DNA of 21,949 nt. Source: a virus. Both the position numbers and the translations under genes were made by a program. The stretch is from IMG/VR virus record IMGVR_UViG_3300011430_000045, positions 1-21,949 of that record, one strand, 5' to 3'. This document shows, piece by piece, positions 9,618 to 19,706 of this stretch (positions are counted from its first letter, which is position 1; each line of letters begins with the position of its first letter). A model generated the notes under the pieces. That model did no database searches and had not been told where the DNA came from. It worked only from the letters and a program-made list of their open reading frames with translations.

Positions 9618-9950
9618 ATGCGAGCCGTAGTCACCAAGGCGTTCCACTATCGCCGCACGCGCTATGCGCCGAGCGGCGATCTCGCGGCGCCGAACGTAGT
9701 CGATCTCGACCCCGTCGCGTTCGAGCGCTTCAGCAGCCTCGGATGCGTAGTCGCCGCGTCCGAATACGCGACGAAGAGCGAGGCAGAGGCCGAGGCTGCA
9801 ACGTTCGTCGCCGAAGCGACGAAGATGGCGGCCGAAGTCGGTGCGCGCGAACTCGAAGACGCGAAGGCGTCCTCGACGAGCCACCACGTTATCGACGCCC
9901 CATCGGCGCCGAAGCGCCCTCGCCGCAAGGAATCCCCCTCCAGCTCCTAA
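9618..9950 (+). CDS. Small head-module protein, 110 aa
   Basis: The N-terminal 45 residues (RAVVTKAFHYRRTRYAPSGD then VVDLDPVAFERFSSLGCV) resemble a small module common next to capsid genes: a strand pair, a YxxG-type turn, then DLD and a short helix ending in a leucine-glycine turn. The rest is a long Ala/Glu/Lys-rich helix and a Lys/Arg-rich tail (APKRPRRKESPSSS). Only 7 nt separate it from the preceding gene and an AGGAG precedes the ATG. The strong terminator follows directly, so this is the last gene of the head operon. Function unknown. Confidence 0.6.
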   Translation: MRAVVTKAFHYRRTRYAPSGDLAAPNVVDLDPVAFERFSSLGCVVAASEYATKSEAEAEAATFVAEATKMAAEVGARELEDAKASSTSHHVIDAPSAPKRPRRKESPSSS

Positions 9951-9971
9951 CCTCCTCCTTCGTGTCCATTG

Positions 9972-10012
9972 GCCCCCGCTCGACGTTCCTTTGCGCGTCG
10001 AGCGGGGGCTTT
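9972..10012 (+). terminator. Strong rho-independent terminator after the head genes
   Basis: A perfect 14-bp stem, GCCCCCGCTCGACG at 9972-9985 pairing with its exact complement at 9996-10009, with a 10-nt loop (TTCCTTTGCG), is followed by TTT and then CCT. It lies 22 nt after the last head gene stop. It is among the clearest intrinsic terminators one would expect in a genome this GC-rich, though the U-tract is short (3 T). It separates the head block from the neck and tail block. Confidence 0.85.
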
Positions 10013-10034: not shown

Positions 10035-10505
10035 GTGGCCAACGTCTACACGGACAGCACGGCGCTCACCACGCGCGTCGGCGCGGCGCGTCTGACCGCG
10101 CTCCAAGATCGGAACGCAGACGGCTCGGCCGATAGCGGGGTGCTCACCGCAGCGATCGAGCGCGCGGGCCGCATCATCAACCGCCGCCTGCGCCAGCGGT
10201 ACGGATCGTCGATCCCGTTTGCGCAGCTGACCGACACGCCCGCGACGCCGGAAGAGATCCAAAAGATCGCCGAGGACCTCGTCCTCTACGACCTATACAG
10301 CTTCTTCGAGCCCGAGGGGCGCGACGCGAAGTACCACGAAGCGCTCGCGATCGAGGCGCTCGATGCGCTGCGCAACGGCGAGGACGACATCGACGTCGCG
10401 CGGGCCGCCGCGCACGAAGGGAAGTTCATCGCGGTCTACGACGCCGAGGACCCCGTGTTCTCTGGCGTCGACGACGACGGCGTCTCCCGCATGCGGGGGA
10501 TCTAA
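10035..10505 (+). CDS. Head completion protein, DUF1320 (Mu gp36-like)
   Basis: A 156-aa protein with the pattern of the DUF1320 family: a short N-terminus YTDSTALTTRVG, then LTALQDRNADGSADSGVLTA with Asp-rich turn, then a helix with INRRLRQRYG and a long helical end (EEIQKIAEDLVLYDLYSFF). Family members such as Mu gp36 act between portal and tail during head completion. The GTG at 10035 is the only good start after the terminator, with a GGGGG upstream at 10022-10026. It begins the neck gene group. Confidence 0.8.
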   Translation: MANVYTDSTALTTRVGAARLTALQDRNADGSADSGVLTAAIERAGRIINRRLRQRYGSSIPFAQLTDTPATPEEIQKIAEDLVLYDLYSFFEPEGRDAKYHEALAIEALDALRNGEDDIDVARAAAHEGKFIAVYDAEDPVFSGVDDDGVSRMRGI

Positions 10506-11002
10506 TGGCCACCGTCGTTCTCACGGTGAAGCACCGCACCGAAGGCGGCGGGCTCGAAGCGTGGTCGGCCGCGATCACCGATCCCACGCCGGCGTTGCTT
10601 TCGATGGGTGGTGTGGTCGAGCGGTTCGTAGAGAGCCGCTTCGAGACGCAGACGGATCCCTGGGGCGCCGCGTGGGCCGCGGTGAGCGCGACGACGCTGG
10701 CGCTGCGCGAGAAGCTCGGCGGCGGCGACGCGCTCGCCCTCGCGTCGAAGGTGTATATGCGCCTGCGCACGCGCGGTCGGCGAATCGTCGTCGGTATCGC
10801 GGGGAGCGCGGGGCGCGCGCGGCAGTTCGGCGCGCCGAACAACCGTATCTTCGGGCGCGCGCCGGCGCCGATCCCGCCGCGTCCGGCGATGCCGCTCCGC
10901 GGCGGCCGCATCGATCTACCCGGCGGGCTGCGCGAGCAGCTCATGGACGCTTTCCGAGAGGGCATCCGCAGCGCGGTCCGCAACCTGCGGAGCCGCTCGT
11001 GA
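10505..11002 (+). CDS. Virion morphogenesis protein (Mu gpG / P2 gpS-like)
   Basis: A 165-aa protein that fits the phage virion morphogenesis family: the segment ESRFETQTDPWGAAWAAVS (about residues 44-62, with the DPxGxxW signature), then LREKLG, a basic stretch RGRRIVVGIAG, and a RQFGAPNNRIFG turn leading to IPPRPAMP, as in the family's HQxG...iPaRPF order. These proteins assist joining of the tail to the head in Mu-like and P2-like phages. The start overlaps the previous stop (TAATG), so expression is coupled. Confidence 0.82.
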   Translation: MATVVLTVKHRTEGGGLEAWSAAITDPTPALLSMGGVVERFVESRFETQTDPWGAAWAAVSATTLALREKLGGGDALALASKVYMRLRTRGRRIVVGIAGSAGRARQFGAPNNRIFGRAPAPIPPRPAMPLRGGRIDLPGGLREQLMDAFREGIRSAVRNLRSRS

Positions 11003-11544
11003 CGGCGCAGACGACGTCGTACCTGCGCGGCGCGATCGTGGAGTGCCTCACGATGTCAACAGGCAAACCGCGGGCGCTCGCGGCGGGACACCTCTTCGGA
11101 CAGGGCTTGCCCCCCGGCGTCGATCGCACACTGCGATCGATCCGCGCGAAGGACGCGACGAATCGCAAGAGCGCGTTCGCGATCATCGGGGACATTGAGG
11201 TACCGGGCTCGGTCGCTGACGAGCTCGGCTCCGACCACATCTACGAGTGCCAGATCGTGATCTCGCGCGACTACTTCCTCGGTTGGGAGTTCAGCACAAG
11301 CGACGTAGGCGCGACGATGGACGCGGTGGCGGACGACTTCATGCGCGTCCGCAAAGCGCTCTGTCACCCCGCCGCGCTCGACACGACGGTCGGCGGAACG
11401 GCGACGGGGATCGCGCACGGCGGCTTACGGGCTGCTGGCGCGAAGGCTGCGCCGCGTGTCGAGCAGATCGGCGACGGCCGCGATCGGCTCGTGAACGTGA
11501 TCGATCGCTTCAGCTGCGTTTTCCAGTTCAGCCCCGGCTCTTGA
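10999..11544 (+). CDS. Probable tail terminator / neck protein, 181 aa
   Basis: The GTG at 10999 overlaps the previous stop (GTGA), and the reading frame from here shows strong G/C third-position bias. The N-terminus reads TAQTTSYLRGAIVECLT. Further on, AFAIIGDIEVPGSVADELGS, YECQIVISRDYFLGWEF and VIDRFSCVFQFSPGS alternate strands and helices like tail terminator proteins, whose last strand typically ends in such a VxFxxxF run. It lies between the head-completion gene and the tail tube gene, the usual site of that function. No clear family motif is available, so the call rests on context and general pattern. Confidence 0.5.
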   Translation: MTAQTTSYLRGAIVECLTMSTGKPRALAAGHLFGQGLPPGVDRTLRSIRAKDATNRKSAFAIIGDIEVPGSVADELGSDHIYECQIVISRDYFLGWEFSTSDVGATMDAVADDFMRVRKALCHPAALDTTVGGTATGIAHGGLRAAGAKAAPRVEQIGDGRDRLVNVIDRFSCVFQFSPGS

Positions 11545-11562
11545 GCCGCTCGAGGAGCTGCA

Positions 11563-12807
11563 ATGCCCACGTACGATCAGATGACCGTGCAGCGCGCACG
11601 GTTTGCGGTGGAGTCGACCACCTTCGGCGACGACCTCACCGACGACGTCGCAACGAATTTCTTCGATCTGCGCCACGAGCCGATCAAGTTCATCCCGAAG
11701 ACGGACATGGTGCAGGACACCACCGTCGTGCAGCGCGCGTTTGAGCAGCGCAACGACGTGCTCGGGCCGTCGCGCGCAAGCGCGGCGTGCACGTTCATGT
11801 GGACGGGCACGAACGAAGCGCTCAATGCGGCGGCGACGCCGACGAAGCGCGCGCAATCGAAGCTGATGGAGGCGCTCCTCGGCGGATACAACGCCGCGGC
11901 GGGTAGCCTCGCCGCGAGCGGCGAAGCGACCACCGGATGCGTCGTGACCGCGGCGCAGGGCAGTCGGTTCACCGAGGGCACGATCATCGGGATCACAGTC
12001 GCCGGCGTTATCTACCCGCGGCTCGTCACGAGCCGAGCGACGGACACGCTCGTGTGGTGGCCGGCGCTACCGGCCGCACCTGCAACTGGTGCGGTGATCC
12101 TCAACAGCCAGTCGATCTTCCTCACCGATACGCCTGCGACGCAGATCCAAATGCTCTTCGAGGCCGCGAAGCAGCGCGGCAATATCTGGACAGGGCTCGG
12201 TGGGTGGGGCGATTTCTCGATGGACTTCACGCGGGGCGGACTCGCGAAGTGGTCCTCGACACTGAACTTCGCCGACTACGAGCACGACGACGAGTTCGAC
12301 GTGCCGCAGGGCGGGAGCGCGATCGCGCTCGCGTCGTACGACGACACCGGGCCGATCGTCGTGAGCAAGGGCGGCTGCCACTTCGGCGCAAGCTCGAGCT
12401 CGACGCTGTCGCTCGTGCGGTGCGCGGGGCTCACGGTCAACTTCGCGCGCGAGTTCTTCGACGTCGGCCTTCACTCGGGGGTCGAGGGTCGCACGGAACC
12501 GGAACTCAACTCGCGCACGCGGCGCACGCTCGAGATCACGCTGCTCAAGCCCGACCCGTACGAGGACTATTGGGAGGCGCATCAGGCCCAGACGAACTAC
12601 GGCCTGCTTTTCTGGCTCGACGGTGGCGCCGGCGGCACGCAACGCACTGTGTGCGTCCCGACGATGCAGATCTGTGCCGAGCCCGAGCCGGTCGAAGCCT
12701 TCGGCATGGAAGGCCTGAAGATCAGTTGCCTCATCAAAGAGAGCAACAAGGCGAGCGCGCAGACCGCCGAGGTGCAGCGCTCTCCGATCGTGATCGGGAT
12801 GACCTGA
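11563..12807 (+). CDS. Probable tail tube protein
   Basis: A 414-aa protein ahead of the tail assembly chaperone pair and tape measure, the usual place of the major tail protein. The N-terminal segment includes VQRARFAVESTTFGDDLTDDV. Between about residues 110 and 190 there is an inserted strand-rich module (GTIIGITVAGVIYPRLVTSR, then ALPAAPATGAVILN) of a kind often seen embedded in tail tube and tail-hub folds. The C-terminal half has strands around STLNFADYEHDDEF and LTVNFAREFF. It is longer than minimal tube proteins, which the inserted module explains. AGGAG lies before the ATG. It is abundant in a virion if the call is correct. Confidence 0.6.
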   Translation: MPTYDQMTVQRARFAVESTTFGDDLTDDVATNFFDLRHEPIKFIPKTDMVQDTTVVQRAFEQRNDVLGPSRASAACTFMWTGTNEALNAAATPTKRAQSKLMEALLGGYNAAAGSLAASGEATTGCVVTAAQGSRFTEGTIIGITVAGVIYPRLVTSRATDTLVWWPALPAAPATGAVILNSQSIFLTDTPATQIQMLFEAAKQRGNIWTGLGGWGDFSMDFTRGGLAKWSSTLNFADYEHDDEFDVPQGGSAIALASYDDTGPIVVSKGGCHFGASSSSTLSLVRCAGLTVNFAREFFDVGLHSGVEGRTEPELNSRTRRTLEITLLKPDPYEDYWEAHQAQTNYGLLFWLDGGAGGTQRTVCVPTMQICAEPEPVEAFGMEGLKISCLIKESNKASAQTAEVQRSPIVIGMT

Positions 12808-12829
12808 TCGCGTCGAGCAGGGGGAAGCG

Positions 12830-13393
12830 ATGGCAAACGTGGATGATCTGATCACGCCGCTTCGCGTGGTGTGTGTGTCGACTGACATGGCGATCGACCG
12901 AGTCGAGACGCCGATCGAGGAGTACATAGAGACGCGCGACGAGGGCCTCGTCGTCGCTCTTCCGGGCCGACGCCTTCGATGGGCGACCGTCGGCGCGTTG
13001 AGCCTCGACGACTTCATGGTCGTCGATTCCTATCCGCCCGGCGCGCAGAAACTGCGAGCAGCATTCATGAACTCGGTGCGCTCGATCGAGAACTACGACG
13101 AGCACGGCGATGCACTTCGCCCCTCGCGGCCGTTCCAACAGGCGGACGGCACCGAGCGCTTCATCTGGACGCTGGACGAATTGCGGAGGATCTTCCTTCG
13201 ACTCGGCGCGCACTTCATCTACGAGCTCGGCTATCTCGCACACGAGAGGGCCATGGTCGAAAAAACAGAGGGCGGCTGCGTCTACTACACGCGGCCGCCT
13301 TCGTTGCAGCACGGGCTAGAACAGATCGCGCGCCAGCATGCGGCGCAGAGCCGGATGAGCGATGGGACCCCGCCCAACGCGAGGTCTGCGTAA
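12830..13393 (+). CDS. Tail assembly chaperone, upstream part (G-like)
   Basis: A 187-aa protein between the tail tube gene and the tape measure, where lambda carries G and GT. A helical middle with WTLDELRRIFLRLGAHFIYE and a final part HGLEQIARQHAAQSR fit a chaperone that coats the tape measure during tail assembly. The third-position GC bias holds in this frame up to the stop. Near the end lies an A6 run followed by a strong hairpin (13260-13299), and the frame -1 to this one stays open beyond the stop as the next entry. A GGGGAAG lies before the ATG. Confidence 0.65.
   Translation: MANVDDLITPLRVVCVSTDMAIDRVETPIEEYIETRDEGLVVALPGRRLRWATVGALSLDDFMVVDSYPPGAQKLRAAFMNSVRSIENYDEHGDALRPSRPFQQADGTERFIWTLDELRRIFLRLGAHFIYELGYLAHERAMVEKTEGGCVYYTRPPSLQHGLEQIARQHAAQSRMSDGTPPNARSA
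13260..13299 (+). promoter_or_regulatory. Candidate -1 frameshift signal: A6 run and hairpin
   Basis: GTC-GAA-AAA-ACA in the G-like frame contains six A (13260-13265), the longest A run I saw in the window. After a 5-nt spacer comes a 10-bp stem, GGCGGCTGCG at 13271-13280 with CGCGGCCGCC at 13290-13299 (one G-U pair), and a 9-nt loop. The AAA codon at 13262 can re-pair as AAA one base back, and the A run could also slip in transcription. The run is not in the ideal X-XXY-YYZ phase, so efficiency is uncertain. Confidence 0.5.
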
Positions 13394-13830
13394 GGATTGA
13401 CCCCGACACGCGTCGCGAGCTCCGGCGCGGATACGGATGCGCGTGCGGTGCATGGCGCTACGAGGTAGGGCGCCGGACCTTCAACGAACTCTCGAGCGAC
13501 CCGAGCGAGACAGTACTCGAAGGCATGCGGCAGGTGACCGACATGCGGCAGACGGGCTGCCCGTGGCAGGCGCTTCGCGATCCGTACGTCGCGGCCGTAC
13601 TGCATTGGTCGCGCGAGGTGAAGCGGCGCGGCGGCTACCCCGGTAGCCTCCCCGAAGCGATCGCGCGCGGCGTCTCGATCTACGAAAGCGCGTTCGGTGC
13701 CGTGCGTGCCTTCGATCAGCAGCGTGAACACGCGCGGCTCGAAGAAGAGAACGCGCAGCGCGAGGCGAACGCGGCGCGCGGATTCGTGGCGCAGCCGACG
13801 ATACGACGACCTACGAAACGTCGCCGCTGA
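13264..13830 (+). CDS. Tail assembly chaperone, downstream part (T-like), read by -1 frameshift
   Basis: This frame, -1 to the upstream chaperone gene, remains open to the TGA at 13828-13830. From about 13390 on it shows coding-like third-position bias. It has no usable ATG or GTG near the upstream stop; the first in-frame ATG is far inside, at EGMRQ. It therefore should be read through a frameshift from the G-like gene, giving a fusion of 145 plus 188 residues if the slip is at the AAA at 13262. The distinct part includes GYGCACGAWRYEVGRRTF with a CxC pair, TGCPWQALRDPYVAAVLHW, and a coiled-coil LEEENAQREANAARG with a basic tail. Low third-position bias before 13390 leaves room for a later slip point. 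Confidence 0.6.
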   Translation, partial: NRGRLRLLHAAAFVAARARTDRAPACGAEPDERWDPAQREVCVRIDPDTRRELRRGYGCACGAWRYEVGRRTFNELSSDPSETVLEGMRQVTDMRQTGCPWQALRDPYVAAVLHWSREVKRRGGYPGSLPEAIARGVSIYESAFGAVRAFDQQREHARLEEENAQREANAARGFVAQPTIRRPTKRRR

Positions 13831-13845
13831 CGGCCGAGGTGCACC

Positions 13846-15642
13846 GTGGCCGACGAGACATTTGAGATTGGCTTCGAGGTCACGAACGCGCAGGCGCCGG
13901 CACAGGCCTTCGAGGATCTCAAGCTCAAACAGCTCCAGGCGGGCGAGGAAGCGAAGCGGCTCTCGGCCGAGCTCCGCGCGCTACAACAGTCGGGCCAGGC
14001 GACCGCGCAGAAGACGGAGGAGCTTCAGCGCGCGTTGATTCGCGCGAAGGAAGCGGCGGCGCAGTACGGGGCGCAGGCTCGGCAGGTGGCGCAGGCGCAG
14101 CGCGCGCAGGCCCAAGCTGCGCAGGCCCAGGCGTCGGCCACGAACACGACTAGTACGGCCATGACGCGCGGCACCGCCGCGCTTGCGACGGCGGGTCGGA
14201 GCGCGAGTACGGTAGGGCAGCAGTTCGGGCAGTTGTCGTCTTCGATCGGACGGGTCGGATCGATAATCGGTACCGCGGCCCCTGCCCTTGGCGGCTTCGT
14301 CACCTCGCTCGGTCAAGCCGGCGGCGCGATGACGGGCCTATCCGCCACAATGGGACCGGTCGGGATCGCGATCGGTGCGGTCACTGCGGCGATCGGGATC
14401 GCCACCGCGGCATGGGAACTCTTCGGCGACGAAGCCGAGGAGGCTGGGCGGGACGCGGAGGAGGCGGCAGGGCGCGCTACCCGTTCGATGACACAGGTCA
14501 TCGAAGCACGGATCACCGACACGCAGGTCCGCATCGAGCAGATGCGGGCTACGGCGGGTTCTGACGCCGAGTTCGTCGAACAGACGGCGGTCTTGCGTGG
14601 CCTTCAGGCGCAGCTCGAAGAGCTCGAGGCGCCGCTTCGCCTTCGCGCACAGCTCGAAGAGGAAGCGACGACACGCGCGCGCGCGCATGCGCAAGCGGAA
14701 GCGGGCCTCGTCGAGGCAGCGCGCGAGTATGCGGCAGGCCTCGCCGAACTCGAAGAGCAAGAACGCGAACAGCAGCGGCGGCGAGAAGAAGCTCAGCAAT
14801 CGCGCCAGCGCGCCGCCCAGTCCGAGCGTGAAGAGCTCGCGCGGATCGATGCGCTCGCAGACCAGCGCGATCAATACGAGCGCAGCATTCAGAAGGTCGT
14901 CGAAGCGCTCGAGCGCGAACAGGCTGCGTTCAACGCGCTCTACGGCGAAGACGCCATGGCAGCGGCGGAGGCGCGGGCGAACGCGTTCACACAGAACCGG
15001 CTGAACGATTCGAACGAAATGCTCGCGATGGGCGAGCAGATCGAGACCGACCGACAGGGCGCTCACCAGGCGGACCTGCATCAGAAGGAGCAGGACCGCG
15101 AGAAGCTCGAAGAGACGAAGGAGCATCACCGTGAGGTCGCCGCGATCACCGACGAGATGTGGTCGAGTGTTGGCGCGTCGGTAACCGACTTCGCCGGCCA
15201 GATGTTCAAGTTCCTCATCTCGGGGAGCGACAAGTCGGGCGACGCGTTCCTCGGGATGCTCGACGCGTTCCTCGAAGCGACGGCGATCGAGTACTCGATC
15301 AAGGCGCTCGGCGAAGCGGCGAACGCGATCGCGGCGTTCGCGCGCAACGATTACGTGGCCGGGCCTCAACACCTCATCGCGGCAGGCATGGCGGCTGGCG
15401 TTGCGGCTGCGACGGGGATTGCCGGCGCGGCCATCAACGTCCCGAGTGCGGGCGCCGGAGGGAGCGCGCCGGCGAGTGCAGGCCAGGCGGCGACGGCTGG
15501 CGGTGGCGGTGGAGTCACCAACATCTCAATCAACCTTTTCGCGCCGAACGCCGTCTTCACCGAGGCCGAGCGCGGCCAGATGCTCACGAACAGCATGCGC
15601 GCGACGCGGCGCGAGTTCGGCCCGGCCGCCACGAGGGTCTGA
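13846..15642 (+). CDS. Tape measure protein
   Basis: A 598-aa protein with the expected layout: an N-terminal coiled-coil region (about residues 20-95, rich in Ala/Gln/Lys/Glu), a hydrophobic Gly/Ala-rich stretch (138-192, including GPVGIAIGAVTAAIGIATAAW), a second long coiled coil with many Glu/Arg/Gln residues, and a C-terminal hydrophobic and glycine-rich segment (GAGGSAPASAGQAATAGGGGG). It sets tail length and later leads DNA into the cell. At about 1.5 Å per residue, 598 residues predict a tail of roughly 90 nm, shorter than lambda's. The GTG at 13846 has GAGGTG shortly before it. It follows the chaperone pair, as in other siphophages. Confidence 0.88.
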   Translation: MADETFEIGFEVTNAQAPAQAFEDLKLKQLQAGEEAKRLSAELRALQQSGQATAQKTEELQRALIRAKEAAAQYGAQARQVAQAQRAQAQAAQAQASATNTTSTAMTRGTAALATAGRSASTVGQQFGQLSSSIGRVGSIIGTAAPALGGFVTSLGQAGGAMTGLSATMGPVGIAIGAVTAAIGIATAAWELFGDEAEEAGRDAEEAAGRATRSMTQVIEARITDTQVRIEQMRATAGSDAEFVEQTAVLRGLQAQLEELEAPLRLRAQLEEEATTRARAHAQAEAGLVEAAREYAAGLAELEEQEREQQRRREEAQQSRQRAAQSEREELARIDALADQRDQYERSIQKVVEALEREQAAFNALYGEDAMAAAEARANAFTQNRLNDSNEMLAMGEQIETDRQGAHQADLHQKEQDREKLEETKEHHREVAAITDEMWSSVGASVTDFAGQMFKFLISGSDKSGDAFLGMLDAFLEATAIEYSIKALGEAANAIAAFARNDYVAGPQHLIAAGMAAGVAAATGIAGAAINVPSAGAGGSAPASAGQAATAGGGGGVTNISINLFAPNAVFTEAERGQMLTNSMRATRREFGPAATRV

Positions 15643-16421
15643 TGGCACACCTTCTCGCCGGCTGGGACTTCGCGCGCTACGAGACAGCGCCCGCGTTCAC
15701 GATCGACGACGACGGCGCCGCGCACCTCATCACGTTCTCGACTGGCACCTACTGTCACATCGATCTTCAGTCGGTGCTCGGCACTGGCGCCTACGACGAC
15801 TTCGCGACCGCGCTTCAGACTGCCATCAACGCCGTGGTCGATGGCAGCAACACATACGCGGTGACGTTCGTGACGTCGCCGACCCCCGGTTACCTGATCG
15901 AAGCGGACACGGTGAATTTCTCGCTCGCGTTCTCTGGCGACGCCGGGACGAATATGCGCCGTATCCTCGGGCTCTCCGGAAATCAGAGCGGCGCGTCGGA
16001 GTACTCGTCGGACGTCACAGCGTACTACTACCTCGCGCTCGCGCGTGACGGGTATTCGGATTTCTCGCGCCCGTTCGAGACAGCGGGCCAGACCAAGCGC
16101 GTCGTCTCCTCGAACGCCAGCGCGTACTCGGTCGGGCCGCAAACGTACGAAGAGCGGTTGAAGCTGAAGATGCGATTCAACGCGCTAGCTAGCGTCTTCG
16201 AGGATCAAGCAGTCACCGCCGCACCGTGGACGTATGAGGCGCTGCGGAAGCATGTGCGCTGTCATCAGCCGGTGGTGTTCCGGACGACCACTCCGGCCGC
16301 GAACCTCGTCTGCAAGTTCGTGACGGGCGAGTTCGATGAGGGTTCGCGCAAGAGCGTGTTCCGCGACTACCACGCGAAGTGGGATCTCGAGGTCGAGGCG
16401 CAGTACCTAGGCTCGGTCTAG
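15642..16421 (+). CDS. Probable distal tail protein, 259 aa
   Basis: The ATG overlaps the tape measure stop (TGATG), so the two are coupled. The protein is strand-rich with aromatic residues, for example AHLLAGWDFARYETAPAFTI near the start, HIDLQSVLGTGAYDDFATALQ and YHAKWDLEVEAQYLGSV at the end. Its place directly after the tape measure and before a large hub-like gene is where siphophages carry the distal tail (Dit-like) protein, which caps the tube and anchors the tip. No specific motif proves the family. Its stop codon interlocks with that of the minus-strand gene in a shared CTAG (16418-16421). Confidence 0.5.
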   Translation: MAHLLAGWDFARYETAPAFTIDDDGAAHLITFSTGTYCHIDLQSVLGTGAYDDFATALQTAINAVVDGSNTYAVTFVTSPTPGYLIEADTVNFSLAFSGDAGTNMRRILGLSGNQSGASEYSSDVTAYYYLALARDGYSDFSRPFETAGQTKRVVSSNASAYSVGPQTYEERLKLKMRFNALASVFEDQAVTAAPWTYEALRKHVRCHQPVVFRTTTPAANLVCKFVTGEFDEGSRKSVFRDYHAKWDLEVEAQYLGSV

Positions 16422-16666
16422 GGCTCGTCGTCGGCAGCGCCGAGCATGCGCGCGAATCCCTCGGAGAGGTTTTCGTTCGCAAGACGGCTCTCGGCAAGGT
16501 GCTCCTGCAAGGTGGTGTGCATCGCATCGAGTCGCGCGCGCGCGGCGCGCAGCTCCTTCGCTGCGCTGACGACCGACCACCACGCGGCGAGCCACATCAC
16601 GAGCCAAGCGACCGCCGCGGTCGCGACGAGCACTGTATAGAGTGCGGAGCCGTCCCCCTCCGACAC
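16418..16666 (-). CDS. Small single-TM coiled-coil protein, minus strand
   Basis: An 82-aa protein on the strand opposite to all neighbours. Residues about 9-33 (LYTVLVATAAVAWLVMWLAA onward) form one clear membrane span. The remainder, AAKELRAARARLDAMHTTLQ and EHLAESRLANENLSE, is amphipathic and likely a coiled coil. The N-terminus is acidic (MSEGDG) while basic residues follow the span, so the positive-inside rule favours the coil in the cytoplasm. That argues against an inner-membrane spanin. The GTG start overlaps the lipoprotein stop (TAGTG). It ends in the CTAG shared with the 259-aa gene. Function unknown; a moron or membrane regulator is the likeliest class. Confidence 0.6.
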   Translation of the reverse strand: MSEGDGSALYTVLVATAAVAWLVMWLAAWWSVVSAAKELRAARARLDAMHTTLQEHLAESRLANENLSEGFARMLGAADDEP

Positions 16667-17037
16667 TACGGGGCGTCCGGGTGATCGGCGCCGAGGTGGG
16701 TCTCACCGTCGCACGGAATCGCGACGCATCGCGGCGAGCCGCTCGCGCAAGAGGAAGCCGCGTCCGCGGAGGCGCACACCACCGGCGCCGTTAGACGGGT
16801 GCCACCACCGAGACGGCCAGGGTCGCACCGCGCTTCCCATGCCTCGTCGCAAGTGGCGAAGTGCAGCCACGTCATCCCGTCGCGCTCCTCACCGCTCTGC
16901 GTGGGGATGTCGTCGTCCGGCCCGCATTCCGCCATCGCTGTGACGGCCCCAGCGGGCACCTCGCACCGCGGCGCCTCGCCAATACAGCCAGCCACCACCG
17001 CCGCGCCCGCCCCAATCCACCACCGCCGCTGAAACAT
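16666..17037 (-). CDS. Small cysteine-rich lipoprotein, minus strand
   Basis: A 123-aa lipoprotein. The ATG at 17037 gives MFQRRWWIGAGAAVVAGC: two Arg, a hydrophobic core, and a VAGC lipobox with the lipidated Cys at residue 18. Eight further Cys residues are spread through the mature part (for example ECG, ATCDEAW, ARCDPG, VVCAS, SSCAS, PRCVAIPC), enough for four disulfides, so it should be oxidised outside the cytoplasm. The reading frame continues upstream to a TTG at 17055, but the ATG gives the better signal peptide. It lies first in a minus-strand pair amid plus-strand tail genes. Phage lipoproteins in such places often block superinfection or alter the host surface; here that is inference. 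Confidence 0.7.
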   Translation of the reverse strand: MFQRRWWIGAGAAVVAGCIGEAPRCEVPAGAVTAMAECGPDDDIPTQSGEERDGMTWLHFATCDEAWEARCDPGRLGGGTRLTAPVVCASADAASSCASGSPRCVAIPCDGETHLGADHPDAP

Positions 17038-17084
17038 GGCGGACCAAGGTAACAACGATCGGACCGGCGTGAAGGGGTCACCAA

Positions 17085-19706
17085 ATGACGACGCCGTGGA
17101 ACCGCTTCATCGCGACGGGCAGCGGCCAGCTCGCTGTCCGGCTCATGATCGAGGGCCTGCCGTACGAGTTCGTTTCTGACCCGCGCATGGAGCAAACGAC
17201 GGCCGACGGCCGCGTGCGCGTATACGCGCTGCCCGAGATGGGCGCAGGGATCGTCATCGAAGACAGCGTCAACATCCCGGAGGCGAAGCTCGAAGCGCAG
17301 GGCGTCTCGATCACGATCTTCGAGACCGACGACGAGCTCGTGTCGCGGGCGTTCTGGTTCATGCCGTCGATCGAGCGCTTCGTCGCGGCGAGCGTCGAGT
17401 CGGACGACGAGACGATCACGCTGTTGAGCACGGGTGGGATCGTTGACGGCGACGTCGTGCACATCGGGACGGAGGCGATCCTGGTGGACGACGTGCCGAG
17501 CGCGACGGAGCTCGACGTCACGGGCGGGCGCGCGTACTGGGATACGATCGCGCAAAAGCACTGGGCGAACGAAGGCGCGGTGCCGTACGCGCTGATCGCG
17601 AACCGCCCGCTGCGCGTGCGCGGCCGGCGCGCGTACATCTACGGCTACGCGGACGGCGACGACCCGCAGGGCGACGGAACACAGATCTGGCTCGGCCACG
17701 TCACGAGCGAGCCGCGCTGCGACGACGCGGGCGCGAGCTGGCACATCCAGATCGGCTCGATCGCGGAGCGGCTCGAGAGCAAGCTCGGCGGCGGGCTCGA
17801 CGTACCGAAGTACCCGCGCGGGATCTACTACCCTTCGCATGCTGGGCTCCGTGTGCTCGTCGCGGAGACGACTGCCGGCGGAGTGGATAACGATACGGAC
17901 TGGTTCACCGGGTTCTTCGAGACGCAGCGCGACTTCGTCGAGGCGCTCACCGACTGGCTTACGACTGGGGGCGAATCACGGATCGCGGACCTTGGCCTCG
18001 CGTCGACGCTCCGAGCGATCGAGACCGAAGACGGCCGCTGGACATTGCAGATCGTGGTCGGTACCGGAGTGACAAACTTCCAGGTCCTTATTCAGAGCGA
18101 GCAGGACGGAGAGACGTCGTTCGACATGGCGGAGTACGTCGACGAGGATGGCGCTCTGTTCGATTCGATATCGGCCGGAGATGTTATCTACCCGCGATGG
18201 TTCACGCGCCACGAGGACGACCGCCTCGTCCCGCGCGGGTTCTTCGGTGAGAGCGGTGACGACAGCCTCCATAGCCCGTCCGACGCCGCGACGTGGCCGC
18301 GCTACCGCCTCTACCTGAACTCCGGCGTCGCGGACGACTGGGTCACGTGCGAGATCGACTGGCCGAGTGGCGATACGCGCGAACACGCGATCGTTTCGGC
18401 CGGCGTCTCGGCCGCCGACAACTACATCGAGCTCGAGCCGTTGCTCGCCGTCGCGGGAGAGCGATACGGCGCGTTCAGCCCGCCCGCTGTGAATCCGCTG
18501 CGCGGGGTAGCAACGGGCAACCTGGACGACTTCCGCGAGTTCCTGCTCACCGAGTCGGTCGACTACGCCAACCGCGGCACCGCGCCGTTCGTCACGTCGA
18601 GCGACATCGCCGATTGGAGCGCGGTGATCGCCGACGCGATCCGCGGGCGCTCGTGGCTCGATCGGCGCTTCTATACGCTTGCCGCTCCCGTCGATCTTGC
18701 CGAGATGCTCGCGGGCGAGTGGCGCCTCCTCAACCTCTTCCCGGTGATCGAGAGCGACGGGCGCATCGGCGTGCGCATCCTGCGCCAACCCAACGAGTCG
18801 ACGGCGGACGCGACGACGATCGACGAAGAAATCGTGAGCGTCGGGTGGAGCTCGATCGAGCGAGGCAATCAGACGATCAACCGCGTCGAGCTCAAGACGG
18901 GCTACGTCGCGCGTGACGACGAGTGGACCGAGACGACGATCGACACCGTCGACATCACGGCATACGCGCAGGATCACCAGGATCGGCCGCTCACGATCGA
19001 GCCGCGTAGCCGGGCGGCCGGTCTCGCGCAGGAGTGGCGAGAGATCGGCGAGAACGCCGTCGCGGAGATGGCGCTCCCGGTGCTCGGGCTCTTCGGCTAC
19101 CCGCACTCGTTCGTCGACGTCCACGTGAGCTGGAAGCTCTTCAACCTGCTGATCGGCGACATCGTCTCGTTCAGCGCTGAGCACCTGCCGAGTTATCTCA
19201 GCGGAGTGCGCCCGATATCGGGCGTCGTAGGGATCGTCGTCGGCCGCCGCTGGGCGCTCGGCGAAGCGCACGGACGGCTGCGCATCCTGATCTCGTTCGC
19301 CAACGTCGCGGGCTACTCGCCAACGGCGCGTGTTACCGGGACGGCGGATCAGGGCGGGAACGTCTGGGACCTCACCATCAATCACACGCTCTACGCGCCG
19401 CTCGATTCGGCAGGCGCCGTGCTCGCGAACGTCGATACTTTCATCGAGGTCGATCACTCGGTGAAAATAGTGAAGTACGACAGCGAGACCGCCTCTGAGG
19501 TCGAGGGCACCGTAACGGCGGTGAACACCTCGACGCACGTCATCCGCGTCGCCTTCAACAACGTGTTCGTTCCCGGCGCGTTTACGTGGGAGCTCATGTT
19601 CCAGGACTACAGCAACTCGAACGACACCGAGCGCAAGTACGCGGCGATCGCGAGCTCTACGGCGCTCCTTGCCGCCAACACGAACCCTCGTACGTACGGC
19701 GCCTGA
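17085..19706 (+). CDS. Large tail-tip / tail hub protein, 873 aa
   Basis: The largest protein in the window, with an ATG after AAGGGG. It is strand-rich, acidic and without membrane spans. Residues about 105-165 hold a module with GGIVDGDVVHIGTEAILVDD then GGRAYWDTIAQKHW, a recurring turn-and-strand pattern in phage tail-tip proteins (DGxVxxIGTEAxxV...G..xGT...H). The second half includes LLNLFPVIESDGRIGVRILR and GRRWALGEAHGRLRILISF. It probably is the hub or tail-associated protein at the end of the tail, where the tape measure leaves and the receptor-binding parts attach. The call is by size, order and module; no enzymatic motif was seen. Confidence 0.6.
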   Translation: MTTPWNRFIATGSGQLAVRLMIEGLPYEFVSDPRMEQTTADGRVRVYALPEMGAGIVIEDSVNIPEAKLEAQGVSITIFETDDELVSRAFWFMPSIERFVAASVESDDETITLLSTGGIVDGDVVHIGTEAILVDDVPSATELDVTGGRAYWDTIAQKHWANEGAVPYALIANRPLRVRGRRAYIYGYADGDDPQGDGTQIWLGHVTSEPRCDDAGASWHIQIGSIAERLESKLGGGLDVPKYPRGIYYPSHAGLRVLVAETTAGGVDNDTDWFTGFFETQRDFVEALTDWLTTGGESRIADLGLASTLRAIETEDGRWTLQIVVGTGVTNFQVLIQSEQDGETSFDMAEYVDEDGALFDSISAGDVIYPRWFTRHEDDRLVPRGFFGESGDDSLHSPSDAATWPRYRLYLNSGVADDWVTCEIDWPSGDTREHAIVSAGVSAADNYIELEPLLAVAGERYGAFSPPAVNPLRGVATGNLDDFREFLLTESVDYANRGTAPFVTSSDIADWSAVIADAIRGRSWLDRRFYTLAAPVDLAEMLAGEWRLLNLFPVIESDGRIGVRILRQPNESTADATTIDEEIVSVGWSSIERGNQTINRVELKTGYVARDDEWTETTIDTVDITAYAQDHQDRPLTIEPRSRAAGLAQEWREIGENAVAEMALPVLGLFGYPHSFVDVHVSWKLFNLLIGDIVSFSAEHLPSYLSGVRPISGVVGIVVGRRWALGEAHGRLRILISFANVAGYSPTARVTGTADQGGNVWDLTINHTLYAPLDSAGAVLANVDTFIEVDHSVKIVKYDSETASEVEGTVTAVNTSTHVIRVAFNNVFVPGAFTWELMFQDYSNSNDTERKYAAIASSTALLAANTNPRTYGA

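Follow-up and report, generated by a model that had tools for sequence, protein, structure and literature searches.

Organization of the locus

The window analysed here, the whole 21,949-base stretch of one uncultivated-virus record (67.7% G+C, a single metagenome contig), carries two overlapping reading frames directly upstream of a tape-measure gene. The second frame lies at -1 relative to the first and lacks a start codon of its own, as in lambda-type G/T pairs. The features of the region are as follows:

11563..12807, plus strand: probable tail tube gene, 414 aa, named by position only, as in relatives
12830..13393, plus strand: G-like gene in frame 2, 187 aa, stop TAA at 13391-13393, based on codon bias, the GC-frame plot and its position before the tape measure
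13246..13249, plus strand: SD-like GAGG, candidate upstream stimulator, based on anti-SD pairing energy and the spacing rule
13260..13265, plus strand: A6 run
13261..13264, plus strand: A_AAA tetramer (Z_ZZN, motif per PMC4066793), proposed -1 slip site, with tRNA-Lys shifting from 13262-13264 to 13261-13263
13264..13830, plus strand: T-like part, 188 codons of the -1 frame that slippage would bring into reading, with codon-bias support only from about 13390
13265..13391, plus strand: two-frame overlap if slippage occurs at A6, about 42 codons, from codon-bias and change-point scoring
13268..13302, plus strand: candidate stimulatory hairpin, 14-bp stem (13268-13281/13289-13302) with a 7-nt loop
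13396..13398, plus strand: ATT, the only candidate non-standard start for T near the G stop, from a scan of the T frame near the junction
13846..15642, plus strand: tape-measure protein gene, 598 aa

Profile matches to a terminase (PHROG 2), a major head protein (PHROG 1005, E 4e-46), a virion morphogenesis protein (PF05069) and a tape-measure protein (PHROG 1686, E 1.7e-6) indicate that the window comes from a tailed phage. In the gene order of tube, chaperones and tape measure proposed in the first-pass annotation, the tape measure has a profile match; the tube is assigned by position only, and this candidate matched nothing in the family libraries searched. With its counterparts in Pseudomonas phage JBD18, Roseobacter phage RDJL6 and Stenotrophomonas phage QH16, the major head protein shares about 26% identity, and aligned major head proteins diverge too much for a pattern scan.

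Judged by its sequence, the phage is a deep singleton. For several tail-region proteins encoded within 11002-19706, among them the probable tube protein (414 aa) and a protein of 873 aa at 17085-19706, neither 50,697 phage records nor the family libraries searched contained a detectable relative. Between tail genes, two small ORFs on the minus strand (16418-17055) run opposite to all other likely genes; the one at 16418-16666 encodes a single membrane-like stretch and the one at 16666-17055 has a lipoprotein-like start. They are perhaps a lysis or cargo pair. The strongest hairpin of the window, at 9971-10010, consists of a 16-bp stem followed by TTTCCTATT and lies between the genes at 9618-9950 and 10035-10505, where it is likely an intrinsic terminator or processing site within the structural operon.

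The coding frame switches without a usual start codon

The -1 frame relative to G is free of stops from 12886 to 13830. This is weak evidence for coding, because -1 frames often stay open in this genome: of 126-nt stretches taken from the -1 frame of its other genes, 71% are likewise stop-free. More informative is the composition of the two frames. In the GC-frame plot, third-position GC tracks the G frame until about 13380, with the T frame taking over at about 13390, and a change-point model using the phage's own codon use locates the G-to-T switch at 13343-13391, a switch at A6 being 21 nats worse. Both the GC-frame plot and codon likelihoods indicate that the G frame is still coding past A6, to about 13390. 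Within 13250-13480, the T frame contains no ATG, GTG or TTG and offers only CTG at 13276 and ATT at 13396; the earlier observation that the second frame is at -1 and lacks ATG or GTG near the junction was therefore borne out and extends to TTG. A start at the nominal ATG at 12979 was rejected, since the T frame has no coding bias there. The coding frame thus changes from G to T with no usual start codon at which T could begin.

If slippage occurs at A6, the overlap would be read in two frames. In this stretch, the G frame scores well above off-frames but lower than almost every other in-frame stretch of the phage (fraction 0.0014). GC at its second positions climbs from 0.41 to 0.60, the direction that third positions of T would favour, although other genes of the window reach 0.59. 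The T frame scores no better than ordinary off-frames, and codon bias reveals no T-frame coding in the first part of the overlap. These data fit a G-dominated two-frame reading, in which the first 20-30 codons of T may be translated. As a check, the same change-point model was run on QH16, which has a canonical T_TTT_TTG and a hairpin; there too the predicted switch falls near the G stop, 54 nt beyond the slip site. The overlap is longer in the window than in relatives (about 42-43 codons versus 3-26).

A proposed single-tRNA slip site between two candidate stimulators

The A6 run at 13260-13265, with the G frame reading GTC GAA AAA ACA (13256-13267), was confirmed as previously described; nowhere else in the 21,949 bases is A or T repeated five or more times in a row. 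It contains the lysine codon AAA, which is rare in this phage (8/149). No canonical X_XXY_YYZ slippery heptamer was found in G; such a heptamer is usual, not universal, for lambda-type pairs. The first-pass annotation listed the imperfect fit of GAA-AAA to tandem slippage as an open point. This point is largely answered, as tandem slippage is not required when GAA-AAA contains A_AAA, a recognized Z_ZZN single-tRNA motif (PMC4066793, PMC5009743). Slippage of a single tRNA on lysine codons is known from IS1222 and from Bacillus subtilis cdd, both at CGA_AAG (PMC5009743).

According to Sharma et al. 2014 (PMC4066793), the minimal bacterial -1 motif is Z_ZZN; an SD-like stimulator is sought 6-17 nt before the second base of the motif, and a hairpin is sought with its start 4-10 nt after the motif, having a G-C pair plus at least three further pairs and 7.6 kcal/mol or more. 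All three elements of the window agree with this description of a bacterial -1 signal. A_AAA at 13261-13264 is in the zero frame. The GAGG at 13246-13249, missed by the first-pass annotation, sits 12 nt before 13262, and its anti-SD pairing energy is among the best 3-4% of window positions. The hairpin at 13268-13302, with 14 uninterrupted pairs, two of them G-U, has a predicted energy of -27.9 kcal/mol (z -5.0) and begins 2 nt past A6 and 4 nt past 13264, in line with the published spacing and energy. A hairpin had been reported at this place, with a stem of 10 bp (13271-13299) starting 5 nt beyond the run; its presence stands, and its extent is corrected here to 14 bp starting 2 nt beyond the run.

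The stem is the second-longest perfect one in the window, after the intergenic one at 9971-10010. In synonymous resamplings of the local peptide with the codon use of the window, A6 appeared in 66/5000 (1.3%), a stem of at least 14 bp in 79/5000 (1.6%), and A6 together with a stem of at least 12 bp in 3/5000. The two features, each rare in this resampling, lie side by side. The energy of the hairpin alone is not unusual for this peptide, 246 of 1000 resamplings being as low. On the opposite strand, where both G-U pairs are mismatches, the fold is weaker (-21.8 against -28.8 kcal/mol), which suggests that the hairpin is fitted to the plus-strand RNA. A role as a minus-strand terminator was rejected for the same reason, and 3 kb separate the hairpin from the ends of the nearest minus-strand ORFs considered. 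An Rfam search gave no meaningful match (best E 0.76).

Proposed joining of the two frames

The combination of the A6 run, the hairpin, the GAGG, the missing start codon and the coding switch makes a frameshift at the A run the best explanation, and G and T are probably the tail chaperone pair of a long-tailed phage, joined by -1 slippage at A6. Under this model, most ribosomes would read G to its stop at 13391 and yield the 187-aa protein. A minority would pause at AAA 13262-13264, held by the 14-bp hairpin ahead and perhaps by the GAGG behind; tRNA-Lys would then move back one base to AAA 13261-13263, and the T frame would be read to 13830. The result would be a GT fusion about 333 aa long. 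By analogy with lambda, binding of the tape measure would fall to G and recruitment of tube subunits to the T part. The frames, the missing start codon, A6, the hairpin and the codon-bias switch are observed directly in the DNA; slippage itself, its exact site, its efficiency and the functions of the proteins are inferred. In lambda, the G:GT ratio is 30:1 (PMC5009743), so a shift of a few percent would be wanted, and slippage at A_AAA is low-level. Against this explanation stand the lack of a homologue of G or T in which conservation of the signal could be compared, the lack of resemblance to chaperone families already described, the nature of the motif, a tetramer that is the least active of the six working in E. 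coli (range 0.26-5.6%), the off-frame score of T early in the overlap, and the greater length of that overlap compared with the relatives.

Other explanations account for parts of these data. T might be translated alone, by reinitiation at ATT 13396 after the G stop and with the aid of a GAGG at 13381-13384, without any frameshift. This would suit the codon-bias switch, which fits best at 13343-13391, and the position of the ATT 2 nt after the G stop; however, ATT starts are very rare, the GAGG sits 11 nt away, which is longer than usual, and the set of A6, hairpin and upstream GAGG would be a coincidence. We consider reinitiation unlikely, and we hold much the same, slightly lower, opinion of an assembly or sequencing indel around 13343-13391 that would hide a single G+T frame in the real genome. 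Codon bias alone places the switch in that interval and the record is a single metagenome contig, but A6 and the hairpin would again be fortuitous, and phages with related head proteins also show split -1 frames. An indel at A6 itself was rejected, since G-frame coding continues after it.

The first-pass annotation also left room for a different slip site up to 13391 and for transcriptional slippage. The former does have a candidate, C_CCG at 13369-13372 near the G stop, which is the only Z_ZZN within the range preferred by codon bias. A -1 shift there instead of at A6 seems improbable, given that C_CCG is a weak motif, exceeding background in E. coli by a factor of only 1.8-3.6 despite a strong stimulator, and is followed by no unusual structure (z +0.8). 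Transcriptional slippage at A6 would add one A to some mRNAs and thereby fuse G and T, and both the A run and the resulting frame suit it. It is very improbable all the same: the documented bacterial cases in PMC5009743 use runs of about nine A or T, the run here is short, and the downstream hairpin could not assist because it is not yet transcribed while the polymerase is on the run.

Homologue searches and comparison with known pairs

The frameshift at the A run proposed in the first-pass annotation therefore remains the best explanation, while the accompanying label of tail chaperones finds no homology to any chaperone family. The pair had no match in Pfam, PHROG or NCBIfam, and no known chaperone family resembles either protein. 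T did not match the Phage_TAC_18 (PF23812) profile at E up to 10, and a profile built from nine T proteins scored 1.7 bits against it, below the best shuffled control (9.5). Usable homologues of G or T were absent from viral contigs searched with G, T, the tube, major head, tape-measure and other tail proteins as queries, and none were found in phage records, in one genome-collection scan with terminase, or in 398 genomes of one phylum. AlphaFold2 run without an alignment gave poor models (mean pLDDT 37.6 for G and 55.7 for T). Overall, a pair acting like G/GT is well supported, and assignment to any particular known family is not.

Lambda G/GT (PMC5009743) shares with the window the order of (probable) tube, G, T and tape measure, a T frame at -1 without a start, and a slip site distal in G. 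It differs in its heptamer, in place of which the window has the A_AAA tetramer with a strong simple hairpin and a longer overlap (about 42 codons), and no sequence similarity was found. QH16, with a related head gene, also has a -1 T frame and a strong hairpin after its slip site T_TTT_TTG, and its G runs 26 codons past that site; however, its motif is a canonical heptamer, and its G and T are unrelated to those of the window at a detectable level. Phage_TAC_18 pairs, such as those of RDJL6 and of the Rhodobacter phages RcRudolph and RcSimone-Hastad, likewise precede the tape measure with T in the -1 frame, but their slip sites lie 3-7 codons before the G stop and their T profile does not match the T of the window. 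The single-tRNA lysine sites (CGA_AAG of IS1222 and cdd, and Z_ZZN of IS1/IS3-family elements) are similar in that only tRNA-Lys re-pairs and the shift is low-level, and slip sites of IS families often carry SD-like or structural stimulators (PMC4066793, PMC5009743). IS1222 and cdd differ in using A_AAG within transposase and cytidine deaminase genes, whereas the window has A_AAA in a phage tail gene.

Among phages with distantly related head proteins, RDJL6 (A_AAA_AAC) and QH16 (T_TTT_TTG with a hairpin) have canonical slip sites and a -1 T frame at the same gene position; a -1 T frame is likewise present in JBD18, where no clear slip site was seen. The G proteins of RDJL6, QH16 and JBD18 match PHROG tail chaperone families, and the T of RDJL6 corresponds to PF23812. 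Two Rhodobacter phages are annotated with G and T as joined genes. Together with RDJL6 and QH16, they speak in favour of a frameshift in the window. In other records, the annotated T begins at an internal or later codon even though a canonical slip site joins it to G in the -1 frame: L003 (13593-13976), QH16 (L004, 4922-5215), L105 (1198-1587), L107 (1201-1551), L109 (1132-1479) and L110 (1198-1599). In these genomes, the fusion has probably gone unannotated. In JBD18 (L006, 12943-13173), upstream of the 47-aa gene that follows the chaperone (PHROG 8022), its -1 frame remains open and protein-like (WADIYACLIAGGYG...), and the gene may be the tail of a frameshift fusion.

Implications

Programmed frameshifting in tail chaperone genes is among the most conserved phage recoding events, and such slippage is a way in which phages make two tail-assembly helpers in a fixed ratio. 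The pair described here is probably an instance, in orphan proteins, of a known kind of system; its slip motif is unusual and its overlap long. Chances are about even that it represents a new, sequence-unrelated chaperone family in which a single tRNA slipping at A_AAA, next to a very strong hairpin, makes the fusion, with about 42 two-frame codons and no heptamer near the stop. By placing the start of T at an internal codon, several deposited phage genomes miss a probable fusion. With its non-canonical slip motif, strong hairpin and long two-frame overlap, this member from a phage without close relatives would broaden the set of signals to be accepted by annotation tools, and a probable role is given to two proteins recognized by no family model.
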